Shown: positions 47,894-51,890 of the stretch, piece by piece
Layout of the letters: every line of letters begins with the position of its first letter
Numbering within the stretch: the stretch's first letter is position 1
Origin: Rhodothermus profundi
Lineage (GTDB): Bacteria > Bacteroidota > Rhodothermia > Rhodothermales > Rhodothermaceae
DNA length: 64,000 bases
Assembly (NCBI RefSeq): GCF_900142415.1
Contig: NZ_FRAU01000001.1
Coordinates: 675,246 to 739,245, forward strand
Reading direction: 5' to 3'
The notes under the pieces: generated by a model
What the model was told of the DNA's origin: nothing
The model's input: the letters and a program-made list of their open reading frames with translations, nothing else
The model's database searches: none
Translations under genes and position numbers: made by a program

Positions 47894-49069
47894 TTATCGA
47901 TGGAAGTTCAGCAGCGGCAGCCAGCGAAGAGCAGGGGGCTGGTTGCCTGCGTAGTTCAGCAGACCGAGCTGCAGACCATGCAACCGATGGGCATAGTTGA
48001 TCAGTCCGATGGTCAGGCCGCGCTGGGTCCCACGAATATGATTAAACGCACTGATTGCTATGCCTCGGAAGTGTCCGTCTGGAGCGATCTGAAAATACGC
48101 TCCCGCTACCGTCAGTCCAGTCATCTCCAGGGCCTCTGCCCAGAGTCCAGTCAGCAATATGCCGCGCACCATCGGAGCCTTAGCTCCTACCCCGCCAACC
48201 ACAACGCCACCCAGAGCCTCACCGGCCCCGACCCCTAACCCGCCAATCAGCACACCGGTGGCCCTTTTCCCGGCTCCTACCCCGAGTCCGCCTATCAGCA
48301 ATCCTGCTACATTTTTTCCAGCGCCAACCCCGAAGCCCCCTACCGCAATCCCTCTGACTGAGCCCCTGGCCGCACCCCCCAGGCCGCCGATCAGCAAACC
48401 GGTCACCGTTCCTCCAACACCCACCCCCAATCCACCGATCAGTACTCCGGTAGCGTTTTTGTCTATCCCAACCCCCAGACCGCCTACCGCAATCCCTCTA
48501 AGCCCCCCTCTGGCACCGACTCCGAGTCCCCCTACCATAATTCCCTGCAGGGAACCTCCAGCCCCCACGCCCATCCCGCCAATCAGTAATCCTTTTGCAT
48601 CCCCACCGGCTCCGACCCCGACTCCGCCGACAAACACGCCGCGCATCTCCTTACCCGCTCCCATGCCAATACCGGCCACCCCGATGCCACTCAGCGTTTC
48701 ACCGGCACCAAGGCCCATGCCTGCCAGGGCCACTCCGGTAAACCGCTCCTCAACACTGACGCCAAACAATCCAATACCTATCCCCAGAACACGCCGGGCT
48801 CCCGTAAGCGGCAGTCCAAGCGCCACCCCGTGCACAACTCCCTGCACCGGCCGATAGGGTTCCCAGATCGTTGCGTTCAGACCGTCCACATGCTCCAGCC
48901 GACGATCCCGAAAGTTCAGGCGTAGGCCGATCACACGCGGAGCATCTCCGATTCGGATCCCCACCCGACGCACGGTCAGGTCCAGCACCTGCGCCTGCAA
49001 TTCAGCAGGGACTACCAGCATCAGCGCGGAGCAGAGCGACAGCAAAACCAGGCGTCTGTGTAGTACCAT
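47894..49069 (-). CDS. Secreted glycine-rich repeat protein (LA_2272 surface-repeat type)
   Basis: A 391-residue protein with a signal peptide (MVLHRRLVLLSLCSALMLVV, cleavage near LQAQ). Residues about 115-310 are twelve consecutive 16-residue repeats of the form G-[VIL]-x-[IV]-[GA]-G-[LMV]-G-V-G-A-G-x4, for example GLLIGGMGVGAGGSLQ and GVLIGGLGVGAGEALG. The C-terminal part keeps related units such as GLTIGLINYAHRLHGLQLGL. This matches the LA_2272 family of surface repeat proteins. The strict period suggests a beta-solenoid or barrel-like sheet. Function unknown; likely outer surface. Confidence 0.8.
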   Translation of the reverse strand: MVLHRRLVLLSLCSALMLVVPAELQAQVLDLTVRRVGIRIGDAPRVIGLRLNFRDRRLEHVDGLNATIWEPYRPVQGVVHGVALGLPLTGARRVLGIGIGLFGVSVEERFTGVALAGMGLGAGETLSGIGVAGIGMGAGKEMRGVFVGGVGVGAGGDAKGLLIGGMGVGAGGSLQGIMVGGLGVGARGGLRGIAVGGLGVGIDKNATGVLIGGLGVGVGGTVTGLLIGGLGGAARGSVRGIAVGGFGVGAGKNVAGLLIGGLGVGAGKRATGVLIGGLGVGAGEALGGVVVGGVGAKAPMVRGILLTGLWAEALEMTGLTVAGAYFQIAPDGHFRGIAISAFNHIRGTQRGLTIGLINYAHRLHGLQLGLLNYAGNQPPALRWLPLLNFHR

Positions 49070-49619
49070 GATGATACCTCGCTGCCTACCTTCTGGAAAG
49101 ACCGGCCCGGTTTACGAACAGGCGACCCGTCCAGGTTGCAGCCACGCTCCGTAAAAGCTCCCCGCTTCGTAGCGGCCACGCACCTTCTACTGAGGTCATT
49201 CCAACAGGGCCAGCGCAGAACCGGCGCCTCCAGGCACGTGCGTCGCATCCGACGTCAGGCAAGCCATGAGAAAAGGCAAACAGATGAGCCTGTTTGATTC
49301 GGAACAGCCGGCACGCGGACCACTGCTCAGGAGTCGCTACGCGGACAGTGCGTCGATGCGGACATAGCGGTCGTGATTTCCCAGAAACCCAGGGGCCCCA
49401 GCAGCGCGCGCTCCTGCCGCAACGCTTCCCGGATGGCACGCAACACCTTTTGCATCATACCTGGCCCAACAGGGCCTCCGCAGCCAGAAACGCTACGGGG
49501 TTTGCTCGCCTCGCACAAGGGCAAACAGGATTTTCTCAGCGCAAAAGCACCCCTGCGAGGCAAAGCCCCTTCCTCACCCGGAACCAGAACCGAAAGAAAT
49601 TTCTGAAGCGATTAGTACC
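49070..49619. other. Intergenic region without recognised gene
   Basis: About 550 bases between the repeat protein and the toxin-like gene. Several short frames on both strands lack family resemblance. One on the minus strand (49327-49563) ends with a stretch ALLGPLGFWEITTAM that I cannot place. No convincing promoter or hairpin was found. The stretch may hold decayed sequence bordering the accessory region. Confidence 0.5.
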
Positions 49620-50615
49620 ATGAAGCAGACCCGTTGCCTTTCAAGTCCCTGGTTTGCTGCTCTGGAACTGTTCGCACAGCCGGTGAGCCTGTCGGGGTGC
49701 GAAGGCTGGACGCCAGCCCCGAACGAAGAACCCTCCTCGGACCCTTCGCGTTTTCGCCGGGCGCTGGTCGAAGAGCAGGAACGCCTGACGCGCTTCGTGG
49801 CGCGTTATGTGCGGCGCCAGGAAGCGTTTCGGGCGGGCAAGCGGCTGGACCGTCAGGCGGTGAGTCGGTTGCTGGAGGAGGCGCTGGCAGCTTATGAGCG
49901 GACGCATGGGGTGACGGGTGTGCTGAGGGGGTATCGTCGGGCGCAGTTGGTGTTGGCGCAGGCTCGCTCGGGGGATCGTCAGACGGCCTGGTGGGACAGT
50001 CTGGGGTTGGACGCGGAGCAGCAGGTGTGGATGGGGCGGTTGTGGGAGGTGTTTCGGACGTCGCACACGGTGGCGGAGCTGGACGCGCGGCTGGGTCGGT
50101 ATGAGGCGACGGTGGTGGCGGCGTTGGGGGCGGAGCGTTCGGGGGTGTTGTATAGTGTTGCGGTGTTCGTGTTTGGTCGGGAGGCGTGGGTGGAGGCGTT
50201 CTGGTCGGTGGTTCGGGAGTTGTTGAAGAAGTCAGGTAGTGGAGGTATGGCGAGGTGGGGTGTTCTAGGTGGTAGGGGATGGATTCGGCTGGCGGCACAA
50301 AGCCTTTGCGAGCCGGTCACGATGCCTCAATTTGGGGACTATTGGACGGGAGTGGAGTTGGGGGCGGTTATGGTGGGGGCCTGCATAGGGGGAGACCTTG
50401 TGGCCTTTATCAGGCGGCTTACCAATCCATGGGTGCTTTTGGGTACCTGTGTTGTAGGCGCCATTGTTGGCGGTTCTTTATATATGGCGGAGGCCTATAC
50501 TGACTATCGTACGGATCTGGCCAAGTGGTGCAGAGAGAATTATATTAGTTGTAAAGATAATGAATTTTACAGGGATGTCTATGCAGATTTTATAAAGCCA
50601 GAAACAACGGAATAA
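49620..50615 (+). CDS. Secreted protein with C-terminal glycine-rich hydrophobic hairpin (candidate pore-type toxin)
   Basis: A 331-residue protein of unknown family. The N-terminus (MKQTRCLSSPWFAALELFAQ) leads to a lipobox-like LSGC at residues 24-27, so it may be a lipoprotein. Residues about 42-205 are helical and charged. Residues 236-290 hold two hydrophobic Gly-rich segments (GVELGAVMVGACIGG and NPWVLLGTCVVGAIVGGSLY), then a soluble tail WCRENYISC ... FYRDVYADFI. This tail and the hydrophobic part recur in the shorter protein at 51180. A multi-TM protein gene follows six bases later. A pore-forming toxin with membrane immunity partner is an inference from layout. The 5' half is strongly G/T-rich on the coding strand. 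Confidence 0.65.
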   Translation: MKQTRCLSSPWFAALELFAQPVSLSGCEGWTPAPNEEPSSDPSRFRRALVEEQERLTRFVARYVRRQEAFRAGKRLDRQAVSRLLEEALAAYERTHGVTGVLRGYRRAQLVLAQARSGDRQTAWWDSLGLDAEQQVWMGRLWEVFRTSHTVAELDARLGRYEATVVAALGAERSGVLYSVAVFVFGREAWVEAFWSVVRELLKKSGSGGMARWGVLGGRGWIRLAAQSLCEPVTMPQFGDYWTGVELGAVMVGACIGGDLVAFIRRLTNPWVLLGTCVVGAIVGGSLYMAEAYTDYRTDLAKWCRENYISCKDNEFYRDVYADFIKPETTE

Positions 50616-50621
50616 CAAGCT

Positions 50622-51047
50622 ATGCAGCGTATATCAAAATATTCAGTTATGAGGTTATTTATAGGATGGCTGTTAATGGCTGTTATATTGGGAATATCTC
50701 GTAGCATTAGCTTAAATACGAACTTGTTAAATTTGGAGAATATTATGACAAGCATGTCTTTTTCAGCTTATGTTTTGGCAATGTTATCAATAATATTATT
50801 TATGGGATTATTATGCATAAGAAATTCAAAACCAATTTCATTATCATCTTTATATATATCTATATTTACTACTTTTGGTACTCAGTTACCTTTGGTACGT
50901 CGATATCTTTCTGCTGATGAAGATTTTGTAGTAACTAGTGATTACCTAAGATTTCTATTTTATATTTTTGCGAGCATATATATTGTCGCTTTATTGACTT
51001 TGTATATTTTAAAAAAGAAAAGGGCATCGTTGCCGAAGTGCGCATGA
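50622..51047 (+). CDS. Four-TM membrane protein, candidate immunity protein 1
   Basis: A 141-residue, very AT-rich gene starting six bases after the candidate toxin. The product has four hydrophobic segments: LFIGWLLMAVILGISRS, FSAYVLAMLSIILFMGLLC, SLYISIFTTFGTQLPLV (weak) and FLFYIFASIYIVALLTLYIL, with a basic tail KKKRASLPKCA. I do not recognise the family. Its size and topology resemble immunity proteins of pore-forming colicins (three to four helices), which supports, but does not prove, an immunity role. Base composition is unlike that of nearly all other genes in the window. Confidence 0.7.
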   Translation: MQRISKYSVMRLFIGWLLMAVILGISRSISLNTNLLNLENIMTSMSFSAYVLAMLSIILFMGLLCIRNSKPISLSSLYISIFTTFGTQLPLVRRYLSADEDFVVTSDYLRFLFYIFASIYIVALLTLYILKKKRASLPKCA

Positions 51048-51179
51048 GTCACCAGGGAATGGTCGAGGGATCTTATTCTGGGCGTTTGGGGCGTGGCTGT
51101 GATCGTTGTTGCATAAGACAGATGGCGTTGGATAGCCTTTGGTCGGGCGCAGCAGAATGCGACGTGTGAGCTCAACCAC

Positions 51180-51467
51180 ATGCTGCAGATTGGAGATTAT
51201 CGGACCGTGGAGGGGCGCTCACGGCGATACTTACAGGAGCATGGGAAGGCTGTGTGTGGATCAGGAGCAGGGTTTTTAAGCGGCCTGATAGGTTCTATCA
51301 TAATCGGTGCGGAAGCCGGCTTACTGACCGGACTCTTTGTGGGGTCTTTTGCCTGGAAACAGAGATTGGAGGCCGCATCCATCGCCTGGTGTGAACGCAA
51401 TCGTGATGTCTGTGAAGGGGTGGAAGCATATCACGCGTTCTGTGACGAAATAACCCAACCCCACTAA
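51180..51467 (+). CDS. Orphan C-terminal module related to the candidate toxin
   Basis: A 95-residue frame with ATG at 51180; the same frame is open upstream only to a stop at 51114. It aligns with the C-terminus of the 331-residue protein: IGDYRTVEG with FGDYWTGVE, and AWCERNRDVCEGVEAYHAFC with KWCRENYISCKDNEFYRDVY. Between them lies a Gly-rich hydrophobic stretch (CGSGAGFLSGLIGSIIIGAE, AGLLTGLFVGSFAW) with GxxxG spacing. Upstream codons (CELNHM) also match (CEPVTM), so this is a 5'-truncated copy. Whether it is translated on its own is unknown. It precedes a second multi-TM gene by six bases. Confidence 0.6.
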   Translation: MLQIGDYRTVEGRSRRYLQEHGKAVCGSGAGFLSGLIGSIIIGAEAGLLTGLFVGSFAWKQRLEAASIAWCERNRDVCEGVEAYHAFCDEITQPH

Positions 51468-51473
51468 TTGGCC

Positions 51474-51890
51474 ATGCGTCCTATAACAATCTCGAACAAA
51501 AAGATCTGGAAGCAACCCGCAAGTATCATAGTCATTATTTTGATATGGTCAATGTACAATATTATTCAATATAATGTGGACACATTTATTATAATTAGAT
51601 CTTTATCATTTGCCGGGATACTATCGGCCTTTCTTTTTATCCTTACCCTAATCATTGCTGCCTTTTTCAAAAGCATCGAAATTTCCATTCATTCGTTTAA
51701 AGAGGTCATCTTCTGGTCACTGATATTATCTTATTATGCATGGAGTTTTTCATTTCTGGCATATGACCATGCGCTGAAAGGATGGTTTGACATGAACGAA
51801 TGGAATATGGCATGGATACTATTTGTCCTCTGGTTCTTTCCCTTTCTTGGAATGTTTTACCTGCTGCACCGGAAAATCAGAACGCAATGA
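51474..51890 (+). CDS. Four-TM membrane protein, candidate immunity protein 2
   Basis: A 138-residue membrane protein starting MRPITISNKKIWKQPASIIV; a TTG at 51468 is an alternative. Hydrophobic segments are ASIIVIILIWSMYNIIQY, GILSAFLFILTLIIAAFF, VIFWSLILSYYAWSFSFLAY and MAWILFVLWFFPFLGMFYLL. It is AT-rich. It has the same position relative to the orphan module as the first membrane gene has to the full protein, and the same size, although I see little sequence identity between the two. This is expected for immunity proteins matched to diverged toxin domains. Confidence 0.7.
   Translation: MRPITISNKKIWKQPASIIVIILIWSMYNIIQYNVDTFIIIRSLSFAGILSAFLFILTLIIAAFFKSIEISIHSFKEVIFWSLILSYYAWSFSFLAYDHALKGWFDMNEWNMAWILFVLWFFPFLGMFYLLHRKIRTQ

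Follow-up and report, generated by a model that had tools for sequence, protein, structure and literature searches.

Gene content of the locus

A stretch of 64,000 nucleotides (64 kb) from Rhodothermus profundi (contig NZ_FRAU01000001.1), here called the window, carries between positions 49620 and 51890 two consecutive units, each consisting of a toxin-like gene or its remnant and a gene for a small multi-transmembrane (TM) protein. An earlier note, made from the letters alone, had read these four open reading frames (ORFs) as a toxin with its immunity protein, followed by an orphan toxin tip with a second immunity protein. The features, with the upstream neighbor last, are:

49620-50615, + strand: toxin-like ORF, 331 aa
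49620..50279, + strand: carrier, the N-terminal part of the 331-aa protein (signal region, lipobox LSGC, mostly helical domain; 85%–89% identity to further copies of this genome)
50280..50612, + strand: variable C-terminal tip, type A (predicted Gly-rich hydrophobic helical hairpin, end motif WCRENY..C; from AlphaFold2 and the tip alignment)
50622..51047, + strand: presumed immunity protein A (141 aa, about four TM helices, GC content 30%)
51117..51467, + strand: tip remnant of type B, chimeric and truncated, containing a 95-aa ORF (51180-51467)
51474..51890, + strand: presumed immunity protein B (multi-TM, GC 37%; 138 aa, or 140 aa from 51468)
49352..49595, - strand: fragment covering the 5' end of a uracil-DNA-glycosylase-like gene and the DNA upstream of it (85% identity to L012:9055-9301)

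On re-reading of the sequence, all four ORFs lay where they had been placed and with the gaps claimed: six bases separate the 331-aa ORF from the 141-aa ORF, and six bases separate the 95-aa ORF from protein B, provided that the ATG at 51474 is taken as the start. The two membrane proteins, described as unrelated to each other, share no detectable similarity, and their description as four-TM proteins agrees with hydropathy and with a low-confidence model of four long helices (mean predicted local distance difference test score, pLDDT, 68.5).

The tip starts in a conserved linker (GGMARWGVLGGRGWxRLAQQNTTCELNSMPQxGDY in the tip alignment), continues as a variable Gly-rich hydrophobic stretch and ends in WCRxNYxxCxxNEYYxxxCxEIIxPQ. 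The Gly-rich hydrophobic hairpin noted earlier in the C-terminus of the 331-aa protein is matched by AlphaFold2, which places a pair of long helices (244-265 and 270-306) within the hydrophobic part of tip A, with pLDDT mostly 76-91 (range 63-91); the model of the whole protein is modest (pLDDT 62.9), its only confident regions being the hairpin and a portion of the helical domain. Some tips gave weak, sub-threshold matches to glycine-zipper models (E 0.0017), and the best score against Pfam Gly-zipper_YMGG, 18.5 bits, lies below the curated cut-off of 28.9. No tip matched a Pfam nuclease; the tips are predicted to be hydrophobic hairpins instead.

A multicopy family restricted to Rhodothermus

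The observation of two related cassettes understated the case, as at least five copies of the gene are present in the window's genome: five have closely similar N-termini (79%–89% identical by segment to the window's) and different ends, and two further tip cassettes lie at contig edges, several contigs of this assembly ending inside the family repeat. The family was found in five of seven Rhodothermus genomes, as a single copy in G004, and neither the 245 genomes searched within the class nor a sample of 395 across the phylum gave any other match. Within the genomes searched, it is restricted to the genus Rhodothermus. Each copy combines a conserved, lipoprotein-type N-terminus of about 220 residues with a variable tip, a pattern that holds across both paralogs and orthologs. 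The carriers (about 330–360 aa) are without CdiA domains in Pfam and NCBIfam profile searches, and the domain after the signal is helical by prediction, with moderate confidence. The N-termini of relatives open with a lipoprotein signal of the usual kind (…AIGLFALLVGLSGCEGWTP), and the lipobox LSGC is present in 13 of 14 readable copies; in the copy that lost it, the 12 bases encoding LSGC are deleted (L012:9548-9560) and the remaining signal peptide is kept.

Homology of the 95-aa orphan to the C-terminus of the 331-aa protein is weak when the two are aligned directly (E 0.003, 25% identity) but is borne out through other family members, since pairwise comparison of the orphan with their C-termini gave strong matches (E 8e-19, 2e-17, 1e-11, and 7e-11). 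A match of the orphan to profile A1 was dropped as evidence because that profile includes the orphan, and the pairwise matches were used in its place. In-frame similarity to the family continues 5' of the orphan's ATG (WIAFGRAQQNATCELN-M), which identifies it as a genuine 5'-truncated copy, as the earlier note had it; it is also chimeric. Up to 51219 its sequence aligns with the front part of cassette C in G006, and beyond about 51302 it aligns with the back part of that genome's cassette B, so that it looks like a junction left by DNA loss between two cassettes. One base near 51212 is missing in comparison with L013, its nearest relative, and the frame is regained further on. The orphan is thus a chimeric, probably frameshifted scar.

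Tips and partner proteins travel together

Every tip with readable downstream DNA has a hydrophobic multi-TM ORF closely 3' of it. Across 18 measured tip-partner pairs, the partners are 126–191 residues long with a GC content of 25%–41%, compared with about 63%–66% for the N-termini, and of the three ORFs of at least 100 residues under 40% GC in the window, two are partners A and B. One partner (at L051) seems to be split, and that of cassette C at L047 is truncated. When seven partner types, defined by similarity among partners, were placed on the tip tree, they required six changes, which is the minimum and was reached by none of 200 shuffles; the result holds with near-copies removed. A Mantel matrix test of tips against partners gave the same picture (4 of 5000 permutations). 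Tips and partners therefore travel together, and by both position and congruence the small gene directly 3' is tip-specific. The partner is most likely, on these grounds, the cognate immunity protein of the adjacent tip.

Partners evolve fast but under constraint. An ortholog of partner A with 70% identity occupies the corresponding site of another species, and the ratio of nonsynonymous to synonymous substitution rates (dN/dS) between species was 0.27 for partner A, 0.23 for B, 0.31 for X, 0.31 for E, and 0.21 for Y, indicating purifying selection; reference genes (aroC, folD, reductase, HtrA-like) gave 0.03–0.07. Among tips, the value was 0.27 for tip A and, from few changes, 0.79 for tip Y. 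Relaxed selection was expected on the whole orphan tip of the window and was not borne out, as its back half gave 0.27 over 55 codons. Because of that value, from only 55 codons, we do not claim complete loss of function for the orphan; decay is evident in the sequence of its front half only.

Syntenic sites hold different cassettes

A comparison of the locus between genomes for swapped tips, proposed in the earlier note, was positive at several syntenic sites between species: at fixed sites the species differ in the tips they carry, some have additional cassettes, and some have an empty site. At the site between fxsA and a ferredoxin-NADP-reductase-like gene (fpr; both names assigned by our own sequence reading), G004 carries tip X with partner X and G006 tip Y with partner Y. 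In G003, tip Y and partner Y are followed by a tip that has decayed (LAFYNEYLKDVKQWW*ENYNHC…) and by partner X, which is intact and 68% identical to its counterpart in G004. In G002, about 66 bases replace the 2-kb module, with flanks 91%–96% identical to those of G004. At the aroC site, the window's order of tip A, partner A, tip-B remnant, and partner B recurs in G006 with tip C and a partner-C fragment inserted before a tip-B remnant without the usual start and partner B; G003 carries a tip and partner of another kind, behind which a remnant of partner B lies, and the module is absent in G002 and G004. At the folD site, the window's genome has partner E together with the pair of tip F and partner F. 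G006 instead carries tip E with partner E and a relic of F, G005 carries another tip, and the site is empty in G001, G002, and G004. Lastly, coaBC and the uracil-DNA-glycosylase-like gene are adjacent in six species, and in the window's genome each borders family sequence at a contig end, from which an insertion of the family between them is inferred.

Downstream orphan cassettes and tip replacement are thus seen at the level of species, and the sites share a pattern in which a new pair stands in front, the older tip decays, and the older partner is retained, which is the stratigraphy of polymorphic toxin loci.

Upstream sequences and neighboring genes

In all 12 other copies with extracted upstream DNA (L009, L010, L011, L012, L040, L042, L044-L046, L048, L050, and L052), a common segment lies 5' of the carrier start, with the layout TTG(C)–short gap–A-tract–short gap–TAnCGTT. 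We call it promoter-like; it was not matched to a published promoter consensus for the phylum. The A-tract, within the spacer, has 6 to 17 A's, homopolymer length being error-prone in assemblies; the spacing is 16–21 bases in the ten automatically measurable copies and would be longer in the A17 copy. Runs of at least nine A's are rare (about 13 distinct tracts in 3.1 Mb of G000, two of them at family promoters), and the window has no A or T run of eight or more. This arrangement suggests that slippage in the A-tract may control carrier expression, as a putative form of phase variation. A run of 43 A's elsewhere (L148, G004:C1:1822944-1822986), in a two-contig genome, is either real or an assembly artefact.

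In the window, the 5' end of the glycosylase-like gene (49352-49595, - strand) stands in place of the family promoter and is 85% identical over 252 bases to L012; judging from this match, the fragment is a trace of recombination with the family copy at the coaBC-glycosylase site. Also adjoining the module is a 391-residue predicted exported protein with many Gly-rich repeats (GVLIGGLGVGAGG...; 47894-49069, - strand), which G002-G004 have in common.

A probable polymorphic toxin-immunity family

Multiple copies, a constant N-terminus, a variable C-terminus, tip-partner co-variation, and retained old partners all support the earlier interpretation of the locus as a polymorphic toxin locus. We consider it probable that the window holds one site of a genus-restricted, membrane-targeting polymorphic toxin-immunity family, where toxicity, a membrane target or pore formation, immunity, and cell-to-cell delivery are inferred from sequence. 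Under this reading, the carrier lipoprotein, with its signal peptide, LSGC lipobox, and helical domain, would be displayed by the producer and transferred to a neighbor, where the Gly-rich hairpin would insert into the inner membrane of closely related cells and permeabilize it, while the downstream multi-TM protein, residing in the inner membrane, would block the cognate tip. New tip-immunity pairs would enter by recombination in the common N-terminal and linker sequence, pushing older pairs downstream, where the old tip would decay and the immunity gene would stay. Because tip and partner alike resemble membrane proteins, as in ionophore toxins of contact-dependent inhibition (PMC11630599) and glycine-zipper toxins (PMC10434224), an attack on the membrane is the most economical reading.

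Several observations weigh against this interpretation. Searches of the locus proteins against Pfam, NCBIfam, PHROGs, PADLOC, and PDB sequences returned nothing over cut-offs, in agreement with the earlier remark that none of the four belonged to a recognized family, and assignment to a known family was rejected on that basis; a fold search of both models against PDB likewise brought no hit at E <= 0.001, the best values being 1.9 and 3.3. The analysis identified no delivery system, TraA/TraB genes not having been searched for. Part of the GC contrast between partners and N-termini is to be expected, since hydrophobic proteins are encoded with AT-rich codons. The window's own copy is without the family promoter segment, and the 331-aa protein, previously called secreted, does have a signal region and lipobox but an unusually weak signal peptide: the signal stretch reads AALELFAQPVSLSGC, with a mean hydropathy of 0.94 vs 1.8–2.5 in 13 relatives, which makes its secretion doubtful. 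This full-length copy may consequently be abnormal in export or expression. Moreover, several copies have N-terminal stops or frameshifts, and part of the family is therefore dead.

Some of this damage is shared. The paralogs at L009:6549-6551 and L011:9492-9494 have the same frameshift, and L040 and L048 have the same stop codon at about residue 90, which suggests that broken N-termini may have spread among paralogs by gene conversion. At L051:4449-5126 (- strand), transposase-like sequence is fused in frame to a tip at about residue 187, which looks like the result of an insertion into a carrier gene.

Such frameshifts and stops, together with the lipobox deletion and the transposase insertion, are what a functionless, decaying repeat family spread by recombination would look like, yet dN/dS of 0.2–0.3 for partners and tip A, intact copies in several species, and tip-partner congruence leave that explanation with hardly any probability. 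A diversifying surface lipoprotein in complex with a membrane partner (e.g., for transport, signaling, or envelope stress), its tips varying by antigenic or phage-receptor diversification and free of toxicity, would also account for the lipobox, the promoter-like segment with a variable A-tract, as expected of a phase-variable surface protein, and the lack of a match to a known toxin fold. However, it predicts neither lone partners beside decayed tips (at the fxsA-fpr site of G003 and the aroC site of the window and G006) nor tandem tip-partner cassettes without an N-terminus, and we regard it as improbable. An abortive-infection or toxin-antitoxin module acting inside the producer, against phage or for locus maintenance, with the multi-TM protein as antitoxin, appears very improbable: the N-terminus matches EAD1, a domain of bacterial conflict proteins, weakly and below threshold (E 0.02–0.2), and membrane-active effectors are common in such systems, but the PADLOC search found nothing, the signal peptide and lipobox point outward, plasmid records gave no match to the family, and orphan immunity genes are a usual mark of intercellular toxins.

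A more far-reaching form of the toxin-immunity interpretation, which we hold to be rather unlikely, is a thermophile-specific set of lipoprotein toxins in which all tips would be membrane-inserting hairpins with matched four-TM immunity proteins and carriers would be switched on and off one by one through A-tract slippage in the promoter spacer, each cell showing a changing subset of kin-discrimination toxins and keeping its immunities. If the toxin-immunity reading is true, the family would provide a new carrier and several new tip-immunity types of the membrane-attacking class, as well as a thermostable system for studies of tip-immunity specificity and a clear fossil record of cassette replacement, with the new pair first and a decayed tip and retained immunity gene behind it.

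Comparison with known systems

In pore-forming colicins, a hydrophobic helical hairpin is neutralized by a small inner-membrane immunity protein of three to four TM helices, and the toxin combines a pore domain of ten helices with receptor and translocation domains, unlike the family described here. Both have a hydrophobic helical hairpin and a small multi-TM partner, and no homology was found between them. The glycine-zipper toxins TelE and EsxX likewise pair a C-terminal Gly-rich, membrane-active tip with a dedicated immunity protein, whereas they are carried by LXG proteins through type VII secretion in Gram-positives (PMC10434224, PMC12744356), and the Rhodothermus family gave no LXG match. 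Ionophore toxins of contact-dependent inhibition (CDI) systems also have a hydrophobic helical C-terminal toxin, with a putative glycine zipper, and cognate immunity proteins that are small, strongly hydrophobic, and highly polymorphic (PMC11630599). However, they ride on large CdiA proteins, which the Rhodothermus carrier is not, their toxin domain has five helices rather than the two long hydrophobic helices predicted here, and their immunity proteins have 72–100 residues and two TM helices (PMC11630599), compared with 126–191 residues and about four TM helices for the Rhodothermus partners.

The SitA/SitI system of myxobacteria shares a lipoprotein carrier with a conserved N-terminal domain and a polymorphic C-terminal tip, an immunity gene directly downstream, multiple copies per genome, and restriction of the carrier to one lineage (PMC5562445, PMC8546572); the lipobox typical of SitA carriers is also found in the Rhodothermus family (LSGC, as above). 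The tips of SitA act in the cytoplasm as nucleases, in contrast to the predicted hydrophobic hairpins with multi-TM partners of Rhodothermus, and their delivery needs outer-membrane exchange by TraA/TraB (PMC5562445, PMC8546572). SitA/SitI is confined to Myxococcales with traAB, whereas the hosts here are Rhodothermus. Given the nuclease activity of SitA tips, and as no homology turned up, we do not file the Rhodothermus family under SitA. No polymorphic toxin family has been described for Rhodothermus in the literature searched. The polymorphic toxin-immunity kind is already known; the carrier and its set of tip-partner pairs are new.
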